DNA of 50,475 bases from Bacillota bacterium. GTDB lineage: Bacteria; Bacillota; UBA4882; UBA8346. Shown one piece after another: positions 12,749 to 49,815 of this stretch (position 1 is its first letter; each line of letters opens with the position of its first letter). The position numbers and the translations under genes were made by a program. The notes beneath the pieces were generated by a model. It searched no databases, was not told the DNA's origin, and saw nothing but the letters and a program-made list of their open reading frames with translations. Location: NCBI GenBank assembly GCA_012735315.1, contig JAAYHS010000098.1:1-50475 (forward strand), read 5' to 3'.

Positions 12749-14176
12749 TTAGTTCAGGTGAATCCTTAATAGTAAATTCAGAGTGCGAATGATTACCGGA
12801 TAAAAAATCCCCGCGGCCACGGCCAATACCGCCATTAAAACGGCCGGTCCGTACAATAACGGCGAGACTTCGGCGACGTTTTCCAAGCCTTCCCGGACTT
12901 TGCCGAAAAAGGCTCGCCGCTGCGCATGAAGCAAATAAGCTAAAGTGACCAAACTGGTGAAAACGGCAAGACCCGCATAAAACCGGTGGCCCGATCCCCA
13001 TAAGGCGATAATGATCAATATTTTGCTCCAAAAACCGGCCAACGGCGGGATTCCGGCCGCCGACAACATCCCGATAATCGAAGTGATTCCGGTAACCGGC
13101 ATTTTGGCAGCCAATCCTCCCAAGTCTTCGAGCCGCCTGGCGCCGGTGGCGGTCTCCGTCGCGCCGGCGTTTAGAAACAATAATGATTTGAAAACGGCAT
13201 GATTAAAAAAGTGAAACACGGCTCCAATCAAACCGAGGGTAGTGCCGGTGGCGAAACTCATTAAAATATACCCGATTTGGCTGATGCTTGAAAAAGCCAG
13301 CATCCGCTTGAAGTCTCCCTGCCCCAAGGCCATGAAAGCGGCCAAGGTCATCGAGAGCGCTCCCAAGATCATTATCAGGTTGGAAAACGACTCCGAAAAA
13401 CCGAAAACCGCGACGATGATCCGCATCAGAGTATATACGCCGGCGACTTTGGTGATAACCCCGGCCAGTAAAACCGAAACCGAGACCGGCGCCGCGGTGT
13501 AGGCGTCGGGAAGCCAGCCGTGAAACGGCATTAACCCGGATTTCAAGGCCAGCGCAAAAACGATGAAACCCAACCCGAAGCGGACCAGCGGAGCGCTGGA
13601 ACTCAAACCCGCGGCCACGCCTTGAAAGGAAACATCGCCGGTAACCGCAAACAAGGCGGCGATCCCGATTAACAGAAAGACCGTAGCCACCGCCGATAAA
13701 ATCATATATTTAAACGAACCTTCGGTTCCGATTTCGTCCATATTATAAACGATCAAGATAAACGAGCTGATGGAGACGATTTCAACGAAGACATACATTG
13801 AGAAAATGTCGGTCGCCATCGCCAAGCCGTTCATCCCGGTCACCGCCAATAAAACCAACGCGTTAAACCCCGAACGGCGGCCGATCGGAACTCCCGCCGA
13901 AAAGATGATCGTCGCCAAGGTCACCAAGGCGATGGTCATCAACACCACCGCCGACAATCCGTCGATGGAGAGAGCGAATTTCTCTCCCAACAACGTTTTT
14001 TGAAAACTAATACCGGTCTCGGAGTTGATTTCCCGAAGAATGTTAGCGAATGATCCCGTCAACATAAAGAGAGTAACGGCGATTGTTACCAAGGTTGACC
14101 CTTTCACCCAAAATTTTCGCATAATCGGCATCATGGCCGCTCCGACCAGCGGCACAAAGATGAATGCTAAAACCAC
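12749..14176 (-). CDS. Antiporter-type proton-translocating subunit (NuoM/N, MrpD-like)
   Basis: About 475 residues and 13-14 membrane helices. Key charged residues of the channel are visible: Glu in MYVFVEIVSISSF, Lys in ALKSGLMPFHGWLPDA, Lys in LAGVITKVAGVY, and the GQGDFKRMLAFSSISQIGY block. The frame remains open to 14257, but that part lies in a palindromic repeat; the GTG at 14176, with GGGAGGG upstream, is the likely start. It is one of three such subunits in the operon and probably forms one H+ or Na+ translocation module. Confidence 0.9.
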   Translation of the reverse strand: MVLAFIFVPLVGAAMMPIMRKFWVKGSTLVTIAVTLFMLTGSFANILREINSETGISFQKTLLGEKFALSIDGLSAVVLMTIALVTLATIIFSAGVPIGRRSGFNALVLLAVTGMNGLAMATDIFSMYVFVEIVSISSFILIVYNMDEIGTEGSFKYMILSAVATVFLLIGIAALFAVTGDVSFQGVAAGLSSSAPLVRFGLGFIVFALALKSGLMPFHGWLPDAYTAAPVSVSVLLAGVITKVAGVYTLMRIIVAVFGFSESFSNLIMILGALSMTLAAFMALGQGDFKRMLAFSSISQIGYILMSFATGTTLGLIGAVFHFFNHAVFKSLLFLNAGATETATGARRLEDLGGLAAKMPVTGITSIIGMLSAAGIPPLAGFWSKILIIIALWGSGHRFYAGLAVFTSLVTLAYLLHAQRRAFFGKVREGLENVAEVSPLLYGPAVLMAVLAVAAGIFYPVIIRTLNLLLRIHLN

Positions 14177-14203
14177 GGTAAACCCTCCCGCCTTCTTGAG
14201 GCC

Positions 14204-14280
14204 TTTCTCCGCGCCTCTGTGCCTTTGTGACCTGTAATTAACTTGCCACGGAGACACTGAGACACAGAGTTAAAAACTTA
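14204..14280. repeat. Dispersed palindromic repeat, copy 2 (inside hydrogenase operon)
   Basis: Left arm CTCCGCGCCTCTGTGCCTTT and right arm GCCACGGAGACACTGAGACA fold back on each other. This copy is the most diverged of the four: its left arm reads CCTTTGTGACC where the others have CTCTGTGGCC. It fills the gap between two antiporter-subunit genes and accounts for a false upstream extension of the reading frame starting at 14176. Confidence 0.8.
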
Positions 14281-14288
14281 TTTTCATT

Positions 14289-16133
14289 CTATCTCGAAAA
14301 CCAGGCCAAGTAAGTCAAAATGAAGATTAAGCCCCCCAAAGACCAGGCCAAATAATTGGAGAATAACCCGGTATGAATCCGGCGCGTCGCCGCCAGCAAC
14401 CAGGCGAGCCAGGGAAGCAGCTTTTCAAAAAACCAGTCAACCGCCCGGTCCACCGTAAATAAGCCTTGCGCCAGATAACCGACGGCTTTTTTACCCTGCT
14501 CGTATGGATCGAAAAACCGCGCTTCGGCCAGATCGTAGAGTTGTTTCAAACCCTTGGCTTGATGGATGTGTTCCGAAGCCCCCAATCCGCTTCCGCTCAA
14601 TTTGACCCCCAGCAGATGGTTGAAGAAGGCGGTGCTCAAAATGATAACGGTCACCCACAACAATTCGGAAAACCCGAAGCTGAAATGAACCCCGCCAATC
14701 CCGGGAAGCCGGCTGAAGGCCAGCGCCGGTTTGAGCAAATAATCAAAGGGAAACCGATGCCAAACTCCGAATAAGATACAACTACCGGCCAATACTCCGG
14801 CGGGCAGCAACATCGACCAATGGGCTTCGTCGACTTGCTTCAATTCAAGCGGCGTCTTTCCCAAAAATACGGCGTGTCCCAACTTTAAAAAGGAAGCGGC
14901 CGTGAAAACCGCCCCGAGAGCGGCCGCGGCAAAGAAGACGGCTTGACCCGACTTCAAAGTAGCCTCGAGGATCAATTCCTTGGAAACGAAACCGTTGAAG
15001 GGAGGGACCCCGGCAATCGAGCAAGCCGCGATGATAAAAAACCCAAAAGTAGCCGGCATCCGTTTCCGCAAACCGCCCAACCGTTTCAAATCCGTAGTGC
15101 CGGTTTGTTTTTCGACCGCGCCGGCGGTCAAAAAGAGACCGGTTTTATAAATGGCGTTATTAAGCAGATGAAACAAACCTCCGACGACGCCGATGGCCGT
15201 TCCGGTGCCGATGCCTAAAATCATATAACCGACTTGACTAACGGCGTGATAGGAGAGGAGTCTTTTGAAATCTTTCTGAATCAAAGCCATCATTACCGCC
15301 AAAAGAATCGTGGCCGCGCCGACGGTCATGATCAGCAATTTCATCCCGGCGGTCGGACTGAAGAAGTCCAGCGCGATCCGGGCCGTTAAATAAATCCCCA
15401 ACAGTTTTTCAACAGCGGCCGGCATCAAAGCCATAAATGGCAGCGGAGCATCCCCGGCCGCATCGGGAATCCAGGTGTGAAACGGCATCGCTCCGGCTTT
15501 GGCCAGAGCGCCGACGAGCATTAAAACGAATGCCGCCCCATTAATCCCGGCGGTATTAAGATGAATAAAAGACATATTTAAAGTTTGAGCCTGCGCCCCC
15601 GCGATTCCGATCCCCAACATCAGGCACAGGTCGGAAAAACCGACGATAATCAAAGCCTTTAAGCCGGTTCGATAAGCCTTTTGTTCCTTGCCGAGGCTGA
15701 TCATTAAGAATAAAGTGATTAATATACTCTCCCAGAAAAAGAGCATAACCACCAGGTTGTTCGCCAAAACCGCCCCCAAAGCCATGGCTTCGGTAATGAA
15801 AATCAGCGCGTAAAAAAGATGCTTCCGGGGGTTTTCTTCCAGATATTTAAAGGAAAATATCAAAACCAACAGCGTAAAAACGGTGATCGCGGCCGCAATC
15901 AACCGGCTGAACGCATAAAAACGAAATTGAAGGTTGATTCCGAAACCGGCCCAGGGAATATTGACCAAAACATTTTGATTCCAAATACTGATCACCAGAT
16001 AAATCAAATAACCGGCAATAATCAAGCCCAGCGTTTCTTGAAAATATTTGGCTCGGGTCCGAATCGCCAACAACGACAATCCCAGCGCCGCCGGTATTAT
16101 AATCAGCAGCATCAATATAATCTGGCTCATCAT
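14289..16133 (-). CDS. NuoL/HyfB-like antiporter subunit with C-terminal extension (614 aa)
   Basis: The conserved channel residues are present in MLFFWESILITLF (Glu), ALAKAGAMPFHTWIPDA (Lys) and MPAAVEKLLGIYL, plus QKDFKRLLSYHAVSQVGYM. The final 130 residues (about 480-614) form an amphipathic stretch and a last membrane helix after ATRRIHTGLFSNYLAWSL, the layout of the lateral helix in NuoL-type subunits. The start ATG overlaps the stop codon of the preceding gene by four bases. It is probably the distal pump module holding the arm together. Confidence 0.9.
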   Translation of the reverse strand: MMSQIILMLLIIIPAALGLSLLAIRTRAKYFQETLGLIIAGYLIYLVISIWNQNVLVNIPWAGFGINLQFRFYAFSRLIAAAITVFTLLVLIFSFKYLEENPRKHLFYALIFITEAMALGAVLANNLVVMLFFWESILITLFLMISLGKEQKAYRTGLKALIIVGFSDLCLMLGIGIAGAQAQTLNMSFIHLNTAGINGAAFVLMLVGALAKAGAMPFHTWIPDAAGDAPLPFMALMPAAVEKLLGIYLTARIALDFFSPTAGMKLLIMTVGAATILLAVMMALIQKDFKRLLSYHAVSQVGYMILGIGTGTAIGVVGGLFHLLNNAIYKTGLFLTAGAVEKQTGTTDLKRLGGLRKRMPATFGFFIIAACSIAGVPPFNGFVSKELILEATLKSGQAVFFAAAALGAVFTAASFLKLGHAVFLGKTPLELKQVDEAHWSMLLPAGVLAGSCILFGVWHRFPFDYLLKPALAFSRLPGIGGVHFSFGFSELLWVTVIILSTAFFNHLLGVKLSGSGLGASEHIHQAKGLKQLYDLAEARFFDPYEQGKKAVGYLAQGLFTVDRAVDWFFEKLLPWLAWLLAATRRIHTGLFSNYLAWSLGGLIFILTYLAWFSR

Positions 16134-17554
16134 TCGATCCCCACCATCCGTCCTACGGCGATTTGAATAAATTCATTCGGATATCCGATTAGAAACCCGC
16201 TCAACAACGACAAACCGGCTAAAACGGACACCGCCCATAACATTCCGGCCGTCCCTTCCTTGACTTCGGGAAATTTCGGTTCGCCCAAAAACACCTTCGC
16301 GAAAAGCCTCAACAAATAAAGCACGGTCAAAAACGCGCCAGCGATAAACACTCCGGCAAGCCAAGGCTTGCCGCTCTCGACCGCGCCGGCGATCACCATG
16401 TATTTACTGAAAAAGCCGCCGCAAGGAGGGATCCCCATCACCGAAAGCGCGCAAAAAGCGAAGGCCGAAGCGGTGATCGGCATGTTTCGGGCAAGGCCGC
16501 CCATTTGCCGGATATCCTTGGCGCCCAACTTATGTTCAACGATTCCGGCGCAAAGGAATAGTCCGCCTTTCGCCAAACCATGGGTTAAGATATAAAGCAA
16601 CCCGCCGGCAACGGCCAATCGGCTGTCCATCAACAACCCCAAAAAAATAAAGGCCAATTGACTGACGGTGGAATAAGCGATAATCCGCTTGAGATCGTTT
16701 TCAACCAACGCCGCTCCGCCGGCCACGATGGAGCTGATTCCGATCACTACCGGCAACACCTGATCCCAGACCGGTTCCCAAACCAAACCGCCCACAAATA
16801 ACCTGGCAAAAACGAAGACCCCGATCTTCACCAATACCGCGGCGTGAAGCAGCGCAGTTACCGGCGACGGAGCCACCCCGGCGTCGGGGAGCCAGGTATG
16901 AAACGGCAAAGTAGCCGACTTGGAAAAAATGCCGGCCATAATCAAACCGACCGCCAAATTAGGAGCGGTCATTCCTCTTAAGACCCGCAGATCGAAGCTG
17001 TGGTATTCGTTGAATAAAATGATCAAGCCGAGCAGCATCGCGAGAGCGCCGCCGACAGTAATCAAAAAAGCTTTGTCGGCCCTTCGGACCATGAAGGGTT
17101 CCCGGTAAAAACCGATCAAACGCCAACAAACGACGGCCGATATCTCCCAAAATAAATAAATGATGACTAAATTTTGCGAGTATACCAACCCGGCCATGGC
17201 TCCCAAAAATAAAACCGTTAAAAAGTAGTATTCGTTTTGGTTCGCTTCCCGCCGTAGATAGTCGAAGGAATAAAAAGTAACAATCAGGCCGATCAATGTG
17301 GCGGCCAAAGCCATAAAAACGCCCAAGGCGTCGGCGCTGAAAATCAAATCCAACCCGAAGCCGGCGGGCTTAAAAACCGTTACAATGTCCCCGGAAAGGC
17401 TCGGTTTCAGCAATAAAAGCGAGGCGCCAAAAGACAAAAATAAAAGTGCCGCGGCCACTGCGTTCCGCGCTTTCGCCGAATGCATCCCCAGCAACGGCAA
17501 TGTGAAAGCCCCGAGAATAGGCGCTAAAATAGCGACCAGCAATGCGTTTTCCAT
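16130..17554 (-). CDS. Antiporter-type subunit (NuoL/MrpD-like), first gene of hydrogenase operon
   Basis: This 474-residue membrane protein has the antiporter signature residues Glu137 (YLFWEISAVV), Lys212 (IFSKSATLPFHTWLPDA), His237 and Lys243 (ALLHAAVLVKIGVF), and the ENDLKRIIAYSTVSQLAF block. It begins the operon: a promoter lies 84 bp upstream and the next gene overlaps it by four bases. The ribosome-binding site (GGAAGAAG) is weak. With the two following antiporter genes it gives the complex three pump modules, as many as complex I. Confidence 0.9.
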   Translation of the reverse strand: MENALLVAILAPILGAFTLPLLGMHSAKARNAVAAALLFLSFGASLLLLKPSLSGDIVTVFKPAGFGLDLIFSADALGVFMALAATLIGLIVTFYSFDYLRREANQNEYYFLTVLFLGAMAGLVYSQNLVIIYLFWEISAVVCWRLIGFYREPFMVRRADKAFLITVGGALAMLLGLIILFNEYHSFDLRVLRGMTAPNLAVGLIMAGIFSKSATLPFHTWLPDAGVAPSPVTALLHAAVLVKIGVFVFARLFVGGLVWEPVWDQVLPVVIGISSIVAGGAALVENDLKRIIAYSTVSQLAFIFLGLLMDSRLAVAGGLLYILTHGLAKGGLFLCAGIVEHKLGAKDIRQMGGLARNMPITASAFAFCALSVMGIPPCGGFFSKYMVIAGAVESGKPWLAGVFIAGAFLTVLYLLRLFAKVFLGEPKFPEVKEGTAGMLWAVSVLAGLSLLSGFLIGYPNEFIQIAVGRMVGIE

Positions 17555-39692: not shown

Positions 39693-41330
39693 ATGAAGCA
39701 GCCAATCAAAAAAACCACTCAATTGAGGAACTTAATCTATTCCAAAGATTTGGAATTTATTATGGAAGCCCATAACGGCCTTTCGGCAAAAATTGTCGAA
39801 GAAGCCGGATTCAAGGGGATTTGGGGGAGCGGCTTGTCCATCTCGGCATCCCTGGGAGTGCGCGATAATAACGAAGCGTCCTGGACACAGGTTTTAGAAG
39901 TGCTTGAGTTTATGAGCGACTCAACCACAATTCCCATCCTATTGGATGGGGACACCGGTTACGGAAACTTCAATAATATGCGGCGCTTGGTAATGAAACT
40001 GGAACAACGCGATATAGCCGGCGTTTGCATTGAAGATAAGCTTTTCCCGAAGACCAACTCTTTCATTAGCGGCGAGACTCAACCCTTAGCCGACATTGAC
40101 GAATTTTGCGGTAAAATTAAAGCCGCCAAAGATACCCAAACCGATCCTGATTTCGTGGTGGTAGCGCGAGTGGAAGCCTTTATCGCCGGTTGGGGTCTGA
40201 AAGAAGCGCTCCGAAGGGCTGAAGCTTATCGTAACGCCGGGGCCGACGCTATCCTAATCCATAGTAAAAAATCAAACCCCTCCGAGATTGAGGCTTTTAT
40301 GAAAGAGTGGGGCAACCGCCATCCGGTGATTATCGTTCCTACCAAGTATTATTCCACTCCGACCGATAAGTTTCGTGAAATGGGGATAAGCCTCGTTATT
40401 TGGGCAAACCATACTCTACGAGGTTCAATAACAGCCATGCAGAAGGTTTGCCGGCAAATCGCCAAAGATGAAAGCCTGATTAATGTCGAGGATAAAATCG
40501 TTTCGGTAGCGGAAGTATTTAGGCTTCAAGGCGCCGATGAATTGCAAGCCGCCGAGAAAAAGTATCTGCCTACAGCCGGAAAAGCGGTCAATGCCGTTAT
40601 TCTAGCCGCTTCTCAAGGCTCGCTGGGGGAAATCACCAAAGATATTCCCAAGACATTGGTTAAAATCGGCGGTAAAAGCATCTTGGAATCCCAAATTGAA
40701 ACATTTAACCAGGTTGGTATCAAAGAAATTACCGTCGTCCGGGGTTTTGCCAAAGAAAAAATTTCCCTGCCCAACATCAACACCGTCGATAATGACGAAT
40801 ATCAAGACACCACCGAACTTTATTCACTATTTCTAGCCTTAAAGGAAATTAAAGAAAATACCATAGTCAGTTACGGCGATTTGGTATTCAAAAGCTATAT
40901 CCTGAACGACTTATTAAATGATCCGAACGACATTACCATCGTCGTCGACGCCGATTTCGAGGAAAATGAGAATTATCACGACTATGTTATAACCGATCAG
41001 CCTTATTCCAAACGGAGTTACTTATTCGACACCAAACTCGAAAAGATCGATCCCGATTTGCCGAAAGAAGCTATTAACGGCGAATTTATCGGAATTTTTA
41101 AAACCAACGCCAAAGGCGGCCAAATTTTACGCGATACCATCGCCAAACTGGCCGCAACTCCAAATTTCAGGCAGCTAAGGATGAAAGACTTATTTAACGA
41201 GATCCTAAAAACACATCCCATAACGGTTAAATTTATCAAGGGTTCCTGGCTTGATATCAACAGTATCGTCGACTTACAAAAAGCGGGGGATTTTAATTGC
41301 TTGACACCAAGACTTTCGGTACGGCGTTAA
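39693..41330 (+). CDS. aepX: Phosphoenolpyruvate mutase fused to a nucleotidyltransferase-like domain
   Basis: PEP mutase converts phosphoenolpyruvate to phosphonopyruvate, the C-P bond-forming step. The N-terminal 290 residues have the isocitrate-lyase-type barrel with [29 protein letters not shown] and the diagnostic [12 protein letters not shown]. Residues about 302-545 resemble a sugar-nucleotide/CTP transferase ([20 protein letters not shown]), but the glycine-rich start reads AAS and lacks the usual Arg, so its activity is doubtful. The ATG at 39693 has a weak GGTGAT site. It overlaps aepY by 34 bp. Confidence 0.95.
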
Positions 41331-42445
41331 AAGAAAACGGATTCACCTTTTTTAGCGGAGTCCCATGCTCCTTTCTTAAAGATTTGATTAACTACGCCAT
41401 TAATCACTGCGAATATATTATTGCCAATAACGAAGGCGATGCGGTGGCAACCTGCGCCGGGGCTTATTTGGGCGGTAAAAAAACCGTTTTTTTATGCCAA
41501 AATTCCGGGCTGACCAACGCAATCTCACCATTAACCTCATTAAATAAACCTTTTCAAATTCCGCTATTGGGATTTGTCAGTTTACGCGGCGAACCGGGTT
41601 TGCCGGATGAACCCCAACACGAGTTAATGGGGGAAATTACCACACCTCTGCTTGATTTGATGCGGATTAAATGGGATTTTTTGGCGGCCGAACCGGAGCA
41701 GGCGTTACTCCAGCTTCAAAAGGCCAACTCTCTAATTGAAAACGGCGAATCATTCTTTTTCGTAGTTAAAAAGGGAATATTTAGCGAAGAAAAACTCACG
41801 GACCAGTCCTCGAAAATTTCATCCAACCGGCTGCTGGTCGAAAAGACGAAGGCCGACTCCCTGCCCAGCCGGGAAGCGGTTCTTCGTTATATTAATAATG
41901 CCAAAGATCGCGATACCTTGATATTGGCGACCACCGGTAAAACCGGGCGTGAACTGTATGAGATTGAAGACGCTCCCAATAATTTCTATATGGTCGGTTC
42001 AATGGGTTGCGTCAGTCCTTTGGCTTTAGGGTTGGCTTTAGCCAGAAAAGATAAAAAAGTGATCGCCATTGACGGCGACGGCGCAATCTTAATGCGTTTG
42101 GGAGTGATTACGACCAACGCCTATTACTCTCCACCCAATATGCTCCATCTAATAATCGATAATAATTCCTACGACTCAACCGGAGGACAACTAACCGTCT
42201 CTCATAATGTTGATTTCATCCGGCTGGCGGCGGCCGCCGGTTACACCGAAGTTTATTATATCCATGATTTGGAAGAACTTAAACAGCGGATCGAACATTG
42301 GAAGAAAAACCGCGGCTTAACTTTACTCTATCTTAAAATCGCTAAAGGCTCCAAGGAAAATCTAGGCCGTCCCAAAATTAAACCTTATCAAGTAAAAGAG
42401 CGTATTATCCGCTTTATTAATGAAAACGGTGAGTCTAAATGGTAA
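41297..42445 (+). CDS. aepY: Phosphonopyruvate decarboxylase
   Basis: This thiamine-diphosphate enzyme removes CO2 from phosphonopyruvate, making PEP mutase effectively irreversible and giving phosphonoacetaldehyde. The N-terminal pyrimidine-binding domain carries [18 protein letters not shown] and [18 protein letters not shown] with the catalytic Glu; the C-terminal domain has the ThDP motif [12 protein letters not shown] ending in [10 protein letters not shown]. The start is a TTG at 41297 with GGGGGA upstream, inside the end of aepX. The 382-residue length is normal. Confidence 0.96.
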
Positions 42446-43170
42446 AAACAGCAGTAATCCTAGCGGCCGGTTTGGGAAGCAGGCTAAAGAACCGAACTAG
42501 CCAAATACCTAAAGGATTCATTACCGTCGGCGGTAAATCCCTAATTGAACAGTCGGTTTCCAAACTGTTAAAGTCCGGCATTGAAAAAATATTGATCGGC
42601 ACCGGGCACGCCGCGGAGCATTATGACCGATTCGCCCGAAATTATTCGGGGACCGTTGTTTGCGTCCGTAATGAAAAATACGCTGAAACCGGCAGCATGT
42701 TTACGCTCTATAATATGAAAGACTTCATCGATGATGGTTTTCTGTTGTTGGAATCGGACTTATTATATGACCGACGCGGGTTAACGATTCTCCAGGAGCT
42801 GACGGAGCCCGATGTTATTCTCGCCAGCGGCAGGACCGACTCCAATGACGAAGTTTTTATCGAGGCCGATTCCAACGGAAACCTGGTTAAAATGTCTAAA
42901 AACAGCGCCGACTTAAAAAGTATCTTCGGCGAGTTGGTCGGAATCACTAAAATTTCCTACCCTACCTTTCAAAAAATGTGTCGCTTCGCCGCCAAGGAAT
43001 TTAGTATTCAACCCAAACTCGATTATGAATACGCTCTGGTCGGAATAAGCGGCTCCACCAAGATTCTGGTTAAAAAAATCGAGGATTTTGTCTGGTGTGA
43101 AATCGACGATGAGACCCATCTGCAACGCGCCGAAGGATATATTTTTCCAAAAATAAAGGAGCAGATCTGA
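42439..43170 (+). CDS. pntC: PntC-like nucleotidyltransferase, probably CTP:2-AEP cytidylyltransferase
   Basis: A 243-residue NTP-transferase with an intact nucleotide motif AVILAAGLGSRLKN and the lysine block IPKGFITVGGKSLIEQ; LLLESDLLYDRRGL carries the metal-binding Asp and WCEIDDETHLQRAE the C-terminal one. Such proteins next to AEP genes activate AEP as CMP-AEP, related to LicC for phosphocholine. It overlaps aepY by seven bp and is followed by the AEP transaminase. The substrate is inferred from context; an ordinary sugar-phosphate nucleotidyltransferase is the alternative. Confidence 0.82.
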   Translation: MVKTAVILAAGLGSRLKNRTSQIPKGFITVGGKSLIEQSVSKLLKSGIEKILIGTGHAAEHYDRFARNYSGTVVCVRNEKYAETGSMFTLYNMKDFIDDGFLLLESDLLYDRRGLTILQELTEPDVILASGRTDSNDEVFIEADSNGNLVKMSKNSADLKSIFGELVGITKISYPTFQKMCRFAAKEFSIQPKLDYEYALVGISGSTKILVKKIEDFVWCEIDDETHLQRAEGYIFPKIKEQI

Positions 43171-43171
43171 T

Positions 43172-44281
43172 ATGTGGTTGAAAGTAAAACGAAATATTTT
43201 GCTTAACCCCGGACCGGCCACCACCACCGACTCGGTAAAAAGGGCTTTAGTGGCGCCGGACATTTGTCCCCGGGAGAAAGAGTTTTGCGAGGTAGTGCGG
43301 GAAATCAGAAATAACTTGGTGAAAATCGCCCACGGAGACGATTCCTACACCTGTGTCTTATTCGCCGGCTCCGGTACGTCCGTCATGGACGCGGCGATTA
43401 ATTCGGTAACGCCTCCCGCTAAAAAGATCGCCATCATTAATAACGGCGCCTACGGCGAACGCATGGTCAAAATCGCTCAAGCTTATAACTTGGATTATGT
43501 CGAGATCAAGTACGAATTCGGCGCTAAAATTAATCCGTCCCAGGTTGCCGAAATCCTGAAGAAGGATAAAGACATCGCTTGCCTGGCCATGGTTCACCAT
43601 GAGACTACCACCGGTTTGTTGAATCCCGTTAAAGAAATCGGGAAAATAGTCAAAGAAAATAATTGCGTTTTTATCGTCGATACGATCTCCAGTTTCGCCG
43701 GTATTCCCATTGATATTAAAGATTGGCAAATCGACTTCATGATGTCCACCTCCAACAAATGCATCCAAGGCATGGCCGGAGTCGCTTTTATCATTTGTAA
43801 AAAATCCGAATTGGAAAAGTTGAAGGATTATCCTCGCCGCTCCTTTTATCTTAACTTATATGATCAATACCTTTACTTTGAAAAAACCGGCCAAAGCCAG
43901 TTTACTCCGCCGGTCCAGATTTTATATGCATTAAAGCAGGCTATCAAGGAATATTTCGCCGAAGGCGGCGAGAACCGTTATCAACGCTATACCGAAAATT
44001 GGAAGGTCTTGCGTCAAGGTTTATTGGATTTGGGTTTCAAACTCTTCCATGAACCCGAGGACGAATCCCATATTTTATTAACCGTCTATGAGCCGGAACT
44101 ACCCGGATATAATTTTGAAGCAATGCACGATTATTTATATGCCAGGGGTTTCACGATCTATCCGGGGAAGATCGGTAATAAGAACACCTTCCGCTTGGCA
44201 AATATGGGGGAAATCAATACCAAAGACATTAAAAAGTTTTTAAAAGCCTTGGCGTCCTATTTGAAAAGCATTCAGCGTTAA
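43172..44281 (+). CDS. phnW: 2-Aminoethylphosphonate transaminase (biosynthetic direction)
   Basis: A PLP-dependent class V aminotransferase of 369 residues. It interconverts phosphonoacetaldehyde and 2-aminoethylphosphonate. Visible are NILLNPGPATTTDSVKRALV, FAGSGTSVMDAAI, the MVHHETTTGLLNPVKEIG stretch, VDTISSFAGIP and the lysine segment MMSTSNKCIQGMAGVAFI. Together with aepX and aepY it completes the route to AEP; no phosphonatase gene is nearby, which favours synthesis. It starts two bases after pntC, with AAGGAG upstream. Confidence 0.95.
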   Translation: MWLKVKRNILLNPGPATTTDSVKRALVAPDICPREKEFCEVVREIRNNLVKIAHGDDSYTCVLFAGSGTSVMDAAINSVTPPAKKIAIINNGAYGERMVKIAQAYNLDYVEIKYEFGAKINPSQVAEILKKDKDIACLAMVHHETTTGLLNPVKEIGKIVKENNCVFIVDTISSFAGIPIDIKDWQIDFMMSTSNKCIQGMAGVAFIICKKSELEKLKDYPRRSFYLNLYDQYLYFEKTGQSQFTPPVQILYALKQAIKEYFAEGGENRYQRYTENWKVLRQGLLDLGFKLFHEPEDESHILLTVYEPELPGYNFEAMHDYLYARGFTIYPGKIGNKNTFRLANMGEINTKDIKKFLKALASYLKSIQR

Positions 44282-44302
44282 TCAATTACGGAGGTTATGA
44301 TC

Positions 44303-45466
44303 GTGAGCGTCACCGGAAAGATATCCTTGTTCTTTAAAGCCTTAAACGATTTCAATCGCTTCTTTGAAGAAAGCAACCGTCAAGCCAGAACCCTTGTCTT
44401 TTATTCGGAAAACGGCATTTATTTGCGGTACTATGAAGGATTGATTCGGGAAATCCTCAACAAGTCCGATTTGGAGATTTCTTATTTGACGGCGGATATT
44501 AATGACCCGATCTTTCGATTTGAAAATAAGCGGATTAAACCCTTTTTTATCCGGAATTTTGAAGCTTCTTTATTCCCCAAACTGGACTCGAAGGTCGTGG
44601 TAATGACCTTGCCCGATCTGAACCGGTTTTACATCAAAAAAACGACCAATCCCGATGTTAACCATGTTTATGTCTTCCATGCCATCGGCAGCACTCATTT
44701 GCAATATAATTTCGGCGCTTTCGATTATTACGACGCCATCTTTTGCGTCGGCCCCCATCATGAGGCGGAAATAAGAAAAAGCGAAGCTTTATACGGCTTA
44801 AATCCGAAACAACTTTTTCAATTCGGTTACCCCTATTTGGAACAAGTCTATTTGGAACATCAAAAATATTTGAAAGAAAACCCGCCAAAAACCGGTTCCA
44901 AAAAGAAAGTTTTAATCGCTCCCACCTGGGGTAAAAACTGTATTTTAGAAACCTGTATTAACCAATTAATCTCGGTTCTCCAAAAAACCGATTACGAAGT
45001 TTATGTTCGTCCTCACCCGGAATTTGTGAAACGCCGGGGTAAAGTGGTGAACCGGATCAAGAATAAAGTGAAAAATATCCCCAATATACATCTGGAACAG
45101 GATCTGGTTTCCGGGATTAATGTTCACAACGCCGATTTTTTGATTACCGATTGGTCGGGGATCGCCTTTGAATTCGCCTTCGGCACCGAGCGTCCGGTGC
45201 TCTTCATCAATACCCCTTTGAAAATCGACAATCCTAAGTATCAAGAGCTGGGTCTCGAACCCCTTGAAATATTTAGCAGAAACCGGATCGGGTTAGCGGT
45301 AAATTTGGAGCAAATCGACCAAATTGAGCAAATTCTAGCTTCTTTCAACGCTGATTTTCAAAAATACCGCGACCAAATAATCGATTTTCGTAACAAATAC
45401 ATTTATAATTGGATGAAATCAGCCGCCATCGGCGCGGAGCAGATCATCGAACTCTGTCATCAATAA
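44303..45466 (+). CDS. TagF/TagB-like CDP-glycerol glycerophosphotransferase family protein
   Basis: A protein of about 387 residues of the GT-B-like TagB/TagF family. The conserved parts are VLIAPTWGKN, YVRPHPEF, then ADFLITDWSGIAFEFAFG, with PVLFINTP. Known members transfer glycerol- or ribitol-phosphate from CDP-alditols to wall polymers with loss of CMP. Since the preceding genes make a CMP-activated phosphonate, this enzyme could transfer AEP instead, which is inference. The GTG at 44303 has GGAGG eight bases upstream; the ATG at 44297 is too close. No signal peptide; a peripheral membrane role is usual. Confidence 0.85.
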   Translation: MSVTGKISLFFKALNDFNRFFEESNRQARTLVFYSENGIYLRYYEGLIREILNKSDLEISYLTADINDPIFRFENKRIKPFFIRNFEASLFPKLDSKVVVMTLPDLNRFYIKKTTNPDVNHVYVFHAIGSTHLQYNFGAFDYYDAIFCVGPHHEAEIRKSEALYGLNPKQLFQFGYPYLEQVYLEHQKYLKENPPKTGSKKKVLIAPTWGKNCILETCINQLISVLQKTDYEVYVRPHPEFVKRRGKVVNRIKNKVKNIPNIHLEQDLVSGINVHNADFLITDWSGIAFEFAFGTERPVLFINTPLKIDNPKYQELGLEPLEIFSRNRIGLAVNLEQIDQIEQILASFNADFQKYRDQIIDFRNKYIYNWMKSAAIGAEQIIELCHQ

Positions 45467-45490
45467 TGGAAATATTAAGGAGGAATTTAA

Positions 45491-45691
45491 ATGAAAATGA
45501 GAGCCGTCTTATTTATGTCCGCAGTCCTCATGTTGCTGTCCATTCCACCGGTTTACGGTTACTCGGATCCGATATCGGTAACCTTGATCTGGCAATTTTT
45601 AGCCAGCATTTTGGTGGGCTTGCTCTTTTTCTTCAAAAGCATCAAACTATGGGTGATAAAGACCTTCTTCAAGGAGAAAAAGAAGGAATAA
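45491..45691 (+). CDS. Small membrane protein (66 aa) of the YxDP type
   Basis: A signal-peptide-like helix (1-23, VLFMSAVLMLLSIPPVYG) is followed by YSDPISVTLIWQFLASIL and a second hydrophobic helix, ending in a basic tail KTFFKEKKKE. Short proteins with a YxDP start, a Q and a membrane helix followed by a Lys/Trp-rich tail are common in polysaccharide clusters next to sulfatase-like proteins, as far as I recall. The ATG has a strong AAGGAGG. It is probably a membrane partner of the following enzymes, and its role is unknown. Confidence 0.75.
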   Translation: MKMRAVLFMSAVLMLLSIPPVYGYSDPISVTLIWQFLASILVGLLFFFKSIKLWVIKTFFKEKKKE

Positions 45692-45778
45692 AAAAGATAT
45701 TTTCACAGCAAACGAAGTTGATAATAGATTTGATGATAATAAGACAAATCCTATAAAAAAATATTTAGGGGTTGAACT

Positions 45779-47215
45779 ATGTTCCGAGAGTATGTCATTG
45801 CCCTATCTTTATCAAATTTATGCTTTTATAAAATAATAACGACTTTCTTTTATAAGAATAAATTCTATTTAAAAGACATCCCCGGAAGCAATCAATTATT
45901 AGCATTAATCTTGGGCGAACTACTGATCGCCACCCTTTTCTGGCTAGCTTGGAGATTGGTTAAAAAGTTAAACAAAAAATATCTGATAGGCATCGCCAAG
46001 TTCTTCGTTTGCCTTCTAGTATTAATTTTTATCTATAGTTTAGCCCAAGATTTTGAAACTTATATTAATAAGAAACTGTTCAGAAGTTGTTTGTTGATTA
46101 TACTAATTACATTAATAATCCGGAAAAAAACCACCAAAGTTGCAACCTCTTTTCTTTTAATAATGGCACCCTTTGTCGGGATGGTTTTTTTCCAATCAGT
46201 TCAAGGTATTGTCACGGATCTTATTACGGAACCCCCCCCTGAAATAAAGCAGCCGATATTCGAAGCGCGACCTGATAAACCAAGAGTATTATGGCTGCTT
46301 TTTGACAGATTTGATTATCAAATTGCTTTCGTCGATCGCCCGGATCATCTTAAAATGCCTGCCTTCGATAGATTGCTGCAACAATCGCTCAGCGCCGAAA
46401 ACGCTTATCCCCCGGGCATGGAAACCATTACTTCATTACCGGCCTTAATTGATGGGAAAATCGTATCCGAAGTTTGTATCGATGGACCGGATAAATTGAA
46501 GATAATTTACCAGGGAAGTGAAGAAACAGTCTATTGGGGCAGTCAGCCGAATCTGTTTACCAAAGCTAGAGCGCTAGAAATGAATACGGCTTTGGTAGGC
46601 GAATATTTACCTTATTCAAGAATAATCGGAAAAGACTTGACTTTCTGTGATTGGACCCAATATTACAATCAATATACAAGTTCCGGTTCAGTATTTGCCA
46701 ATGTGTATCAACAACTCAGAATGCTCTGTATAGGACCCGCGCGACATCATGTGCAAATGAAGGAATCATATTATCACATCCAAAACCTTACCAAAGAATT
46801 GGTTTCCAAACCGGAGTACAATTTGATAATGATCCATAATCCAATTCCCCATCCTCCCTACTTTTATAAAGAACATTTCTGGGGAAAAGGAGGACTCACA
46901 GCATATATTCATGCATTGGAGTTAGTTGATTACACAGTAGCCGAGATTCGTCAGTTAATGGAAGAGCAAGGAACCTGGGATAATACAACCGTCATTATAT
47001 CAGCGGATCACGGCATAGAAAGTAAGGTTCCTTTTATAATTAAACTCGCCAATCAAACACAACCGGTTATTTATGAACCGGCTTTCAATACAGTAATTAC
47101 TCAAGAAATTATTCTAGCAATTCTTCGCAAAGATATTACAACTCCTGAACAATTGGTAACCTTTTTACGGGAAAACGGTCGGATGATTGAACCGGTAAGA
47201 CCCAAGCAGCCTTAA
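45779..47215 (+). CDS. Membrane-anchored sulfatase/alkaline-phosphatase-superfamily enzyme (copy 1)
   Basis: The N-terminal about 145 residues hold four membrane helices; the C-terminal part is extracytoplasmic. Superfamily features seen are RVLWLLFDRFDYQIAF (metal-binding Asp), METITSLPALIDGK (candidate nucleophilic Thr in TxxSxP), IHNPIPHPPYFYK (His) and VIISADHGIES (Asp-His). The TxxSxP order is shared with phosphoethanolamine transferases. With AEP genes upstream it may move a phosphonate or phosphate group between lipid and glycan, which is inference. It is about half identical by eye to the next gene, and more AT-rich. Confidence 0.8.
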   Translation: MFREYVIALSLSNLCFYKIITTFFYKNKFYLKDIPGSNQLLALILGELLIATLFWLAWRLVKKLNKKYLIGIAKFFVCLLVLIFIYSLAQDFETYINKKLFRSCLLIILITLIIRKKTTKVATSFLLIMAPFVGMVFFQSVQGIVTDLITEPPPEIKQPIFEARPDKPRVLWLLFDRFDYQIAFVDRPDHLKMPAFDRLLQQSLSAENAYPPGMETITSLPALIDGKIVSEVCIDGPDKLKIIYQGSEETVYWGSQPNLFTKARALEMNTALVGEYLPYSRIIGKDLTFCDWTQYYNQYTSSGSVFANVYQQLRMLCIGPARHHVQMKESYYHIQNLTKELVSKPEYNLIMIHNPIPHPPYFYKEHFWGKGGLTAYIHALELVDYTVAEIRQLMEEQGTWDNTTVIISADHGIESKVPFIIKLANQTQPVIYEPAFNTVITQEIILAILRKDITTPEQLVTFLRENGRMIEPVRPKQP

Positions 47216-47268
47216 TATAAAGGCTAATTATCAAAATAACATATAAACTGTGCCGGGAGATTAATTTT

Positions 47269-48723
47269 ATGCTGAAAAAATTTTTAATCGCCCTGTCCTT
47301 TACTAATCTTTGTTTTTATAACGTGTTCTGCATTCTCTGTTATCAAAGAACTTTTTATGTAAGATATCTACCGACCGCCAACAGTTATCTCGCTTTGATC
47401 ATCAACGAACTGTTGGTCGCCTCGTTAATGGTGTTGGCTTGGGAAATCGTGCTTCGAATTAACAAGCCTTATCTAACGAAAACTATCAAAGCATTTTTGT
47501 TCCTGGTAGTGCTCATTCTAGTGAATGATGCCGCCAGAGACATTCAGGGAATCGATCACGATATCATCAAATATAGTTTATTAACAATCACCTTCCTGTT
47601 AATTATTTTTAAAAAAACAACCAAGGCTACCGTCTTTTTTCTGTTAATTTCAGCTCCATTTGTCGGCGTTATCTTTTTTAAGTCCGCCGCCGGTTTTGTG
47701 GCAAACCTTCACCGGACCGCACCGCCGCCTAAACCGGCTTTATCTTCGACCGCGGTGGATAACCAAGCCCCGCGGGTGCTTTGGCTGCTCTTTGATGAAC
47801 TGGACTATAGAATCGCTTTTATCGACAAACCCCAGGGATTAAAACTGCCAACGTTCGAACGTTTTCAAAAACAAGCTATAACTGCGGAAAATGCTTATTC
47901 ACCTTCTACTTGGACCAAAGTATCGATTCCCGCCTTAATTGATGGGAGATTTATTTCAGGCGCAGTCAACGATAATCAAAACTTGAAAATAACTTACCGC
48001 GACACCGGCGATACAGTCAATTGGGGCAGTAAGCCCAATGTCTTTTCCAGAGCCGGGGAACTAGGTTATAAAACGGCGCTAATCGGAGAGTATCTGCCCT
48101 ATGAAAGGCTGATCGGAAAGGATCTGACATATTGTTCCTGGTATTCATATTATCCATCGTATGTCAGTCCGGTTGACACGCTTCCCGCCAATCTCTATTC
48201 ACAACTATTCAACATCTTTACGGCATTGACCAAATCGTATATCCATCGTAAAAATACTTACCCCGTATTTTTGGAAGAGTCCAAAAAATTGGCGGCCGAA
48301 CCGGCCTATGGACTAACAATGATTCATATTCCCATTCCTCACGGTCCGTTTTTTTATAAGACCCCTTGGTGGAATCAATCCGGGGAAGGTTATTTGAATT
48401 CATTGGTTTTGGCCGACGAAACTTTGAAGCAACTATGGGACGTCATGGCCTCTAAGGGACTTTGGGATTCGACTACCGTAATCCTTTCTTCCGATCATTG
48501 GCTGCGCAAACAGAAGAAATACTTTAACGTCACCGACTCCCGCATTCCTTTCCTGGTCAAAACCGCCGGGCAAAAGGAGGCTTTTGTCTATCAACCTCAT
48601 TTTAATACGGTAATTACTCAAGCTTTAATATTAGCGATTCTTGAAAATAAAGTAACCACTCCCGAAGATGTTATCGACTGGTTGGATAAACACCGGGATC
48701 CGGTCAACTATTTACCAATTTAA
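47269..48723 (+). CDS. Membrane-anchored sulfatase/alkaline-phosphatase-superfamily enzyme (copy 2)
   Basis: This 484-residue paralogue of the preceding gene has the same plan: four membrane helices, then RVLWLLFDELDYRIAF, TWTKVSIPALIDGRF (Thr and Ser as above), IHIPIPHGPFFYK and VILSSDHWLRK, where the usual Gly after DH is replaced by Trp. This change may alter substrate preference. GGGAG precedes the ATG at nine bases. It is the last gene of the operon, followed by a clear terminator. Whether the pair hydrolyses or transfers groups cannot be told from sequence. Confidence 0.8.
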   Translation: MLKKFLIALSFTNLCFYNVFCILCYQRTFYVRYLPTANSYLALIINELLVASLMVLAWEIVLRINKPYLTKTIKAFLFLVVLILVNDAARDIQGIDHDIIKYSLLTITFLLIIFKKTTKATVFFLLISAPFVGVIFFKSAAGFVANLHRTAPPPKPALSSTAVDNQAPRVLWLLFDELDYRIAFIDKPQGLKLPTFERFQKQAITAENAYSPSTWTKVSIPALIDGRFISGAVNDNQNLKITYRDTGDTVNWGSKPNVFSRAGELGYKTALIGEYLPYERLIGKDLTYCSWYSYYPSYVSPVDTLPANLYSQLFNIFTALTKSYIHRKNTYPVFLEESKKLAAEPAYGLTMIHIPIPHGPFFYKTPWWNQSGEGYLNSLVLADETLKQLWDVMASKGLWDSTTVILSSDHWLRKQKKYFNVTDSRIPFLVKTAGQKEAFVYQPHFNTVITQALILAILENKVTTPEDVIDWLDKHRDPVNYLPI

Positions 48724-48744
48724 ATTAATCTCTTCAACATCGGA

Positions 48745-48782
48745 AAAGGACTCGTACGAAACCGAGTCCTTTTGGTTTTTTC
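48745..48782 (+). terminator. Intrinsic terminator of the phosphonate operon
   Basis: AAGGACTCG pairs with CGAGTCCTT around a TACGAAAC loop and is followed by TTGGTTTTTT on the plus strand, 22 bp after the last stop codon. Confidence 0.88.
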
Positions 48783-48803: not shown

Positions 48804-48833
48804 TAAACCGACCTCAAATCGGTTTTTTTAATA
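48804..48833 (+). terminator. Second terminator, overlapping the end of the GT9 gene
   Basis: AAACCGA and TCGGTTT pair across CCTCAAA, followed by TTTTTAA. It may back up the operon terminator or serve the convergent gene, whose stop codon lies within it. Confidence 0.55.
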
Positions 48834-49815
48834 AAGAATAGATCCCTTGATATACTTGTTCCGGAGTTATATATTCCATGAGTTTCTCCTTATCCTCATT
48901 AGCTAAAATATTCTGAGCGGGTTGAATCACAACATGGGGGCAATTATACGGGCCGTATCTTACCACGCTGGTCGGCCCAAACAAGGCCACAACCGGGACC
49001 TGCTGGGAAACTGCGATATGCATCGGTCCACTATCCCCGCTTAAAAAAACCGAACATTTCTTGATGGCCGCCGCCAACTCCAAGAGATTCAATTTACCGG
49101 TAAGCACGACCGGCTTAATCTTAGCCAAGGCAACCACCTTTTCCACGATCCCGATTTCAGCCGGCCCGCCGAAGAAGATTGTTTTCAGGCCGTCTCCCTG
49201 AAGCATGTCCGATAATTCCGCCAAGTATTCCGCTTTCCAACATTTGCCGGCGCTGCTTCCGCCGGGATGAATTCCGACAACGGTTTGGTCATCCAAATTA
49301 TTCTCAAGCCAAATTCGTTCCGCGGTTAACTTGGACTGTTGGTCATACTCCATTTCCATCTTAACATCGCCGGAATTGGGAACGGAAATACCCAATTCCC
49401 GCAAGGCTTTCAGATAACAGTCCACGCAATGAACGGAACGGTCCTTAATTAAATATGGATTAAAAAACCTTTTCAAAAATTTACTGGCAAACCCGCAAAC
49501 CTTCTTTCCCCCACTAAAAGCCGCCAATGCGGAGGCGCGCTCCGACGGATTTAAGTTGATCACCAGATCATACCGGGTTTCCCGGATTTTCCTAATCATT
49601 TTCAAATGCTCAATTAGGCCGGCTTGCCGTCCCCTTTTATCAAAAGAGATCACCTTGTCAATATAGGGATTGTATAAGCATATTTGACGGACATCTTCGG
49701 CTATCAGCGCATCGACCTTCGCGTGGGGAAAAGCTTGCTTAACTATTCTAAAAACTGGAGTAAAGAATAACGACTCTCCTATCGCCGGCATTATGTTGAC
49801 GATTAAGATTTTCAA
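48814..49815 (-). CDS. Glycosyltransferase family 9 (LPS heptosyltransferase-like)
   Basis: A 333-residue GT-B enzyme. The N-terminus MKILIVNIMPAIGES and the C-terminal motifs VVGIHPGGSSAGKCWKAEYL, SGDSGPMHIA and VVALFGPTS are characteristic of ADP-heptose:LPS heptosyltransferases. It would extend a core oligosaccharide, consistent with an LPS-bearing outer membrane. The start is a TTG at 49815 with GAGGAGG at eight bases. It is convergent with the phosphonate operon. A donor other than heptose is possible. The 280 bases upstream (49816-50096) hold only a very short frame and nothing I recognise. Confidence 0.88.
   Translation of the reverse strand: MKILIVNIMPAIGESLFFTPVFRIVKQAFPHAKVDALIAEDVRQICLYNPYIDKVISFDKRGRQAGLIEHLKMIRKIRETRYDLVINLNPSERASALAAFSGGKKVCGFASKFLKRFFNPYLIKDRSVHCVDCYLKALRELGISVPNSGDVKMEMEYDQQSKLTAERIWLENNLDDQTVVGIHPGGSSAGKCWKAEYLAELSDMLQGDGLKTIFFGGPAEIGIVEKVVALAKIKPVVLTGKLNLLELAAAIKKCSVFLSGDSGPMHIAVSQQVPVVALFGPTSVVRYGPYNCPHVVIQPAQNILANEDKEKLMEYITPEQVYQGIYSLLKKPI

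Follow-up and report, generated by a model that had tools for sequence, protein, structure and literature searches.

The window analysed here, the whole contig C27 (50475 bases; JAAYHS010000098.1) of a 2.95-Mb draft genome of a Bacillota bacterium (G000; GCA_012735315.1), carries at 39693-48723 eight genes arranged head to tail on the plus strand and followed by a terminator. They combine genes for the synthesis and activation of 2-aminoethylphosphonate (AEP) with those for a TagF-like transferase, a small membrane protein and two membrane enzymes of the alkaline phosphatase (AP) superfamily. The features are as follows, the evidence for each being given in brackets.

39693-41330, plus strand: phosphoenolpyruvate (PEP) mutase (aepX/pepM) with a C-terminally fused PF12804 nucleotidyltransferase (NTase)-like domain, 545 amino acids (TIGR02320, PF12804)
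41297-42445, plus strand: phosphonopyruvate decarboxylase, Ppd (aepY/ppd) (TIGR03297)
42439-43170, plus strand: PntC-type CTP:AEP cytidylyltransferase, 243 amino acids (phmmer match to 6pd1)
43172-44281, plus strand: 2-aminoethylphosphonate transaminase, PhnW (phnW/aept) (TIGR03301)
44297-45466, plus strand: divergent TagF-like transferase with predicted GT-B fold, 389 amino acids (PF04464, AlphaFold model)
45491-45691, plus strand: 66-amino-acid YxDP membrane protein (homologue in a same-genus genome, YxDP profile)
45779-47215, plus strand: membrane AP-superfamily enzyme AP1 (PF00884)
47269-48723, plus strand: membrane AP-superfamily enzyme AP2, 44% identical to AP1 (PF00884, alignment)
48744-48773, plus strand: intrinsic terminator of the operon (11-pair stem, then a T-rich tail)
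48814-49815, minus strand: GT9 heptosyltransferase-like gene, convergent and outside the operon (PF01075, 132 bits)

The ppd gene, which starts with TTG, overlapped the PEP mutase gene by 34 bp and was itself overlapped by the 42439 gene by 7 bp, with 1 bp separating the latter from phnW. Gaps of 15 bp (phnW to the TagF-like gene), 24 bp (to the small membrane gene), 87 bp (to AP1) and 53 bp (AP1 to AP2) followed. The terminator scan detected three terminator-like sites against 0.1 in shuffled sequences, 48744-48773 being a strong hairpin. The same gene order was found in G001 (JAAYEK01), a Bacillota metagenome-assembled genome and the sole other genome of the genus found, where it was split over two contigs. 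One of them carried, behind the same divergent neighbour as in the window, the genes for PEP mutase-NTase, Ppd and PntC and the first part of phnW. The other started inside the TagF-like gene, after which came the small-protein gene, a single AP gene and, as in the window, the GT9 gene (L012). A search of named genomes with the TagF-like protein matched only this sister genome. Because the order was kept in a genome of the same genus, the gene set was not considered a chance arrangement. The eight-gene set with its terminator, proposed in an initial annotation of this DNA, was borne out, and so were the functions named there, except that the NTase-like domain fused to the PEP mutase had been missed. 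The intact AP gene of G001 was preceded by a short AP remnant with stop codons (C48, 649-831), which suggests decay of the second AP copy in that genome.

Three of the four AEP genes passed the curated equivalog cut-offs of NCBIfam, namely those for PEP mutase (TIGR02320, 403 bits with a cut-off of 320), Ppd (TIGR03297, 399 and 312) and AEP transaminase (TIGR03301, 449 and 361). The 39693 protein carried the EDKXXXXXNS motif, used as the definition of PEP mutase (Ppm) by Rice et al. 2019 (PMC6697681), and its mutase domain (39693-40580) scored 497 bits to the mussel (Mytilus) PEP mutase 1m1b; the other solved entry, 5unc, stood far below with only 271 bits. The 42439 protein matched Treponema denticola Tde1415 (6pd1) over residues 1-241, the whole PntC domain (phmmer E 3.9e-73), and conserved Lys25, Glu104 and Glu196, placed at the AEP/phosphonate site of Tde-PntC (PMC6697681). 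Because these three residues were conserved, CTP:AEP activity is better supported than activity on sugar phosphates. That the first four genes would make AEP and activate it to CMP-AEP, as initially proposed, is thus well supported by the equivalog matches and the close PntC homology with its substrate-contact residues. No phosphonatase PhnX was found above the cut-off in the genome, for which reason a catabolic role of the AEP genes was rejected. G070, a genome of another family of the phylum, likewise encoded Ppd and the PEP mutase-NTase fusion, the latter with 67% identity; its PntC and transaminase were fused to each other, as in Treponema. The AEP part of the operon is the already-known "Pnt" pathway (Rice et al. 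2019).

The PF12804 domain occupied residues 301-418 of the 39693 protein. Five PEP mutase-NTase fusions from Bacillota, Burkholderiales and Acetobacteraceae were aligned (the window, L046, L049, L102 and L103), and in all five the fused domain lacked the arginine of GxGxRL and the Glu residues of PntC. It was consequently rejected as a second AEP cytidylyltransferase and could be inactive or serve another purpose. Such fusions have been counted as cytidylyltransferases in the literature, yet the fused domain is perhaps not one.

The 44297-45466 protein matched PF04464 with 44.6 bits, above the gathering cut-off of 22.1; such a score marks it as divergent, ordinary members of the family in the sampled genomes scoring 170-300. 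In the AlphaFold (AF2) model, which was of moderate confidence (predicted local distance difference test, pLDDT, 71), the best fold match in the PDB was TagF (3l7l/3l7k; 3l7l with CDP-glycerol, E 6e-11), so the model predicts the GT-B fold of TagF. The divergent subfamily was rare in the survey sample of 399 genomes of the phylum, being detected in seven of them at E 1e-10. The TagF-profile matches of G265 and G338 (both E near 1e-12) were left unused, the grounds being an ordinary TagF-rich polymer locus and a contig end.

The small membrane gene noticed initially does exist, but its frame is 45491-45691 (66 amino acids) and not the overlapping open reading frame (ORF) 45409-45756. The shorter frame was taken as the conserved one because it has a 68-amino-acid homologue in G001, with differences biased to the third codon position (12, 3 and 19 at positions 1, 2 and 3), and the overlapping ORF was rejected on that account. 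The protein consists of a hydrophobic N-terminus, GYSDP, a transmembrane helix and a basic tail. A YxDP profile built only from other genomes, although part of its loci came via a search that included the window protein, found it with E 2.9e-5 among 12,609 ORFs, and a profile-profile comparison (hhalign) with YxDP gave a probability of 96.7%. With an earlier, stricter profile E was 0.02, and the protein and its G001 homologue still came next after the training sequences and their copies, nothing else falling below E 6. By these comparisons, the 66-amino-acid protein is taken to be a YxDP membrane segment in free-standing form, relatives having it fused to TagF-like proteins (G267, G336) or to an AP domain (G411). 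YxDP was found below E 1e-8 at 11 loci, and at ten of these an AP gene was fused to it, lay next to it or stood no more than about 6 kb away; a match in G150 (E 6e-4, inside a 305-residue frame) was left out of this count. A second YxDP paralogue of G000 (C44, 5383-5580; L135) stood alone, with no AP gene nearby. A trio of YxDP small protein, methyltransferase-like protein and membrane AP recurred at L100 (8236-11415), L136 (8956-12195), L137 (9006-12069) and L138 (6308-10409), the methyltransferase-like protein of three trios having a kinase-like stretch, DA.AYNIQF..KPV.IDTLS. A literature search on the YIDPG motif returned nothing related, and a plasmid search with the AP and YxDP proteins of G117 and with AP1 of the window gave no matches.

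AP1 and AP2 matched PF00884 with 41.3 and 40.8 bits (cut-off 25), the AP domain following several predicted transmembrane helices. Thr216 of AP1 aligned with the catalytic Cys of sulfatases, CxPSR was absent and its arginine missing, and D176, T216, D410 and H411 were invariant in an alignment of five AP sequences. Both proteins read as phosphotransferases or phosphodiesterases with a Thr nucleophile rather than as sulfatases. Pfam returned only PF00884 and PF01663 for them, with no match to the EptA N-terminal domain, and a sequence comparison at E up to 1 matched no EptA, MCR or LtaS of solved structure. The structure prediction for AP1 (five sequences, pLDDT 49) was not used for fold comparison. 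Of two further AP paralogues in G000, one (L010, 149-2918; C25), 63% identical to AP1, followed the gene for an O-antigen ligase (Wzy_C) after 47 bp, which hints that the AP enzymes act on lipopolysaccharide (LPS); the other had no glycan genes beside it.

PEP mutase above the cut-off was present in 15 of the 399 genomes, and PF04464 genes lay within 10 kb of it in six (G000, G001, G106, G267, G336 and G386). In G001, where the two genes lie on different contigs, the link is taken from the conserved gene order. About 0.1 such cases were expected at random from the 16 matches and the genome sizes, although glycan genes cluster anyway. In G267 and G336, representing two further families, divergent TagF-like members were encoded at the AEP loci, accompanied there by a fusion of YidC and AP. 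G267 also had a second copy of the pair (L105, 6269-17784; C10), in which YidC-AP and YxDP-TagF adjoined a choline kinase-LicC fusion, a LicC-type NTase and a BCCT transporter. No LicD was encoded at this choline locus, the only LicD of the genome lying at its AEP locus. The choline locus also held a gene of the trimethylamine methyltransferase family. The TagF-like/AP pair thus appears to follow zwitterionic head groups activated with CMP or CDP. The fusion partners were exchanged between genomes, as YidC-AP was combined with YxDP-TagF in G267 and G336 and YidC-TagF with YxDP-AP in G411. Such swaps in other bacteria are a classic sign that proteins work together and argue for joint working of the YidC, YxDP, AP and TagF-like proteins. 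The initial annotation had not recognised the combination of a TagF-like transferase and tandem AP enzymes with AEP genes as described. The pairing proved to recur at AEP loci of two more families and the module to occur also with phosphocholine genes or with neither, but a literature search, with many subscription papers outside its reach, found no description of the TagF-like/AP/AEP combination.

LpxC was encoded in G000 and G001 and in each of the eight family members sampled, and an LPS outer membrane is therefore very likely. The GT9 heptosyltransferase-like neighbour (48814-49815) was conserved in G001. LicD (PF04991), the usual transferase, had no match in G000 or G001. Supported by this context, decoration of the cell surface with AEP is considered highly probable. 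Elsewhere in the window (12749-17554, minus strand), three consecutive genes for Mrp/NADH-dehydrogenase-type antiporter subunits were found.

The reading that we consider best overall, and hold to be somewhat probable, is that the operon serves phosphonyl tailoring in a diderm Bacillota bacterium with LPS, the TagF-like protein being the CMP-AEP transferase and the AP enzymes finishing the product outside. PEP mutase, Ppd and PhnW, whose families are evident from sequence, would make AEP, and PntC (42439), by its close homology, would convert it to CMP-AEP. The TagF-like GT-B protein, replacing LicD and tied to the membrane by the 66-amino-acid YxDP protein, would then, at the cytoplasmic side, use CMP-AEP as the donor of phosphonoethanolamine for a glycan or lipid bound to the membrane. 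After export, AP1 and AP2 would use their Thr nucleophile on the phosphonate/phosphodiester group at the outer face and transfer the phosphonate or its carrier group to the final acceptor, most likely the LPS core or O-antigen. The role of the TagF-like protein is suggested by its operon position, its fold, the absence of LicD and the recurrence beside PntC- and LicC-type genes; for the AP enzymes, superfamily membership suggests an action outside, with the phosphonate or its carrier as the target.

Several observations weigh against this reading. H128 of the TagF-like protein, invariant in four divergent members, is at most a candidate for the counterpart of the catalytic H444 of TagF. Two of the four AP paralogues of G000 do not lie next to AEP genes. 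That the module is not AEP-specific is indicated by G117, G085, G039 and G126, where a stand-alone YxDP protein neighbours AP and methyltransferase-like genes, and by G411, where the polysaccharide locus with the TagF/AP pair has neither AEP nor choline genes. The LicD gene near the AEP genes of G267 and G336 could encode the AEP transferase there. The AP proteins of the window are devoid of the YidC domain of the G267, G336 and G411 modules, so these systems correspond only in part. The product and activities of the operon are, moreover, predicted from its genes, and the initial proposal that the later genes attach AEP to an envelope glycan or lipid stands only in part, favoured by the LPS-type genome, the adjoining heptosyltransferase gene and the lack of PhnX above the cut-off.

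The main rival explanation assigns the AEP transfer to AP1 and AP2. AEP would first enter a phosphono-phosphatidylethanolamine-like lipid, by the action of the TagF-like or another protein, and would then be moved to LPS in an EptA/PptA-like manner. Head groups of this kind (phosphocholine, phosphoethanolamine) are transferred by the AP-superfamily enzymes PptA and EptA (PMC10434233), and the Thr nucleophile and metal residues are kept in the window proteins. CDP-alcohol phosphatidyltransferases are present in some AEP clusters, but none is encoded in this operon, and together with the missing match to the EptA N-terminal domain and the AP paralogues away from AEP genes this makes the explanation rather unlikely. 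The TagF-like, YxDP and AP proteins could also form a general module for an envelope polymer (polyol-phosphate or phosphate-capped glycan) that merely shares the operon, AEP being attached by the product of a gene elsewhere. This would agree with the module of G411, the four genomes pairing YxDP-AP with a methyltransferase-like partner and the further PF04464 genes on contig C129 of G000. It is judged unlikely, given the spacing of only 15 bp between phnW and the TagF-like gene, the fact that three families have the module at loci for AEP or phosphocholine, and the absence of LicD from the genome. PhnW alone can run in either direction, which would suit free AEP or a small-molecule phosphonate as the product, or AEP catabolism. 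Such an outcome is very improbable, as PEP mutase, Ppd and PntC form a biosynthetic set, PhnX was lacking above the cut-off and the operon includes membrane and transferase genes.

Known systems resemble the operon in different parts. The Pnt clusters of Treponema denticola, Atopobium rimae and Olsenella uli (PMC6697681) share the NTase-fused Ppm, Ppd, AEP transaminase and PntC, the window PntC being closest to Tde1415, and the joint presence of a separate NTase and one fused to Ppm, as here, has already been described for such clusters (PMC6697681). In the window, however, PntC and the transaminase are encoded by separate genes, there is no LicD-like gene, and TagF-like, YxDP and two AP genes follow. 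The Lic-1 phosphocholine pathway (LicA-LicB-LicC-LicD) likewise activates a zwitterionic head group with CTP before its transfer to a glycan, but here the head group would be AEP, LicD is absent from the genome and the TagF-like protein takes its place. With the teichoic-acid glycerol- and ribitol-phosphate transferases TagF, TarF and TarL (PF04464), a family thought to use CDP-activated donors, the 44297 protein shares the GT-B fold and the RPHP and DxSG motifs; it differs in its low score, and its partner genes suggest CMP-AEP rather than CDP-glycerol as the donor. The EptA/PptA/LtaS-type phosphotransferases have the membrane-anchored AP domain and Thr nucleophile in common with AP1 and AP2, which differ in the absence of the EptA domain and solved-structure matches noted above.

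Most bacterial phosphonate clusters are thought to decorate cell surfaces, and the step after CMP-AEP is unknown (PMC6697681). The operon supplies a small set of candidates for this attachment step of the Pnt pathway. Tentatively, and with some doubt, the YxDP, TagF-like and membrane AP proteins, joined in some lineages by a YidC-type domain, may be regarded as the reshuffled parts of a common membrane machine, through which envelope glycans receive phosphonate or phosphate head groups, a single module serving AEP, phosphocholine and others, which here would replace LicD as a CMP-AEP-dependent system. While the AEP part is known, the module variant appears to be new, and as judged from its genes it has a good claim to be the missing step of the Pnt pathway.

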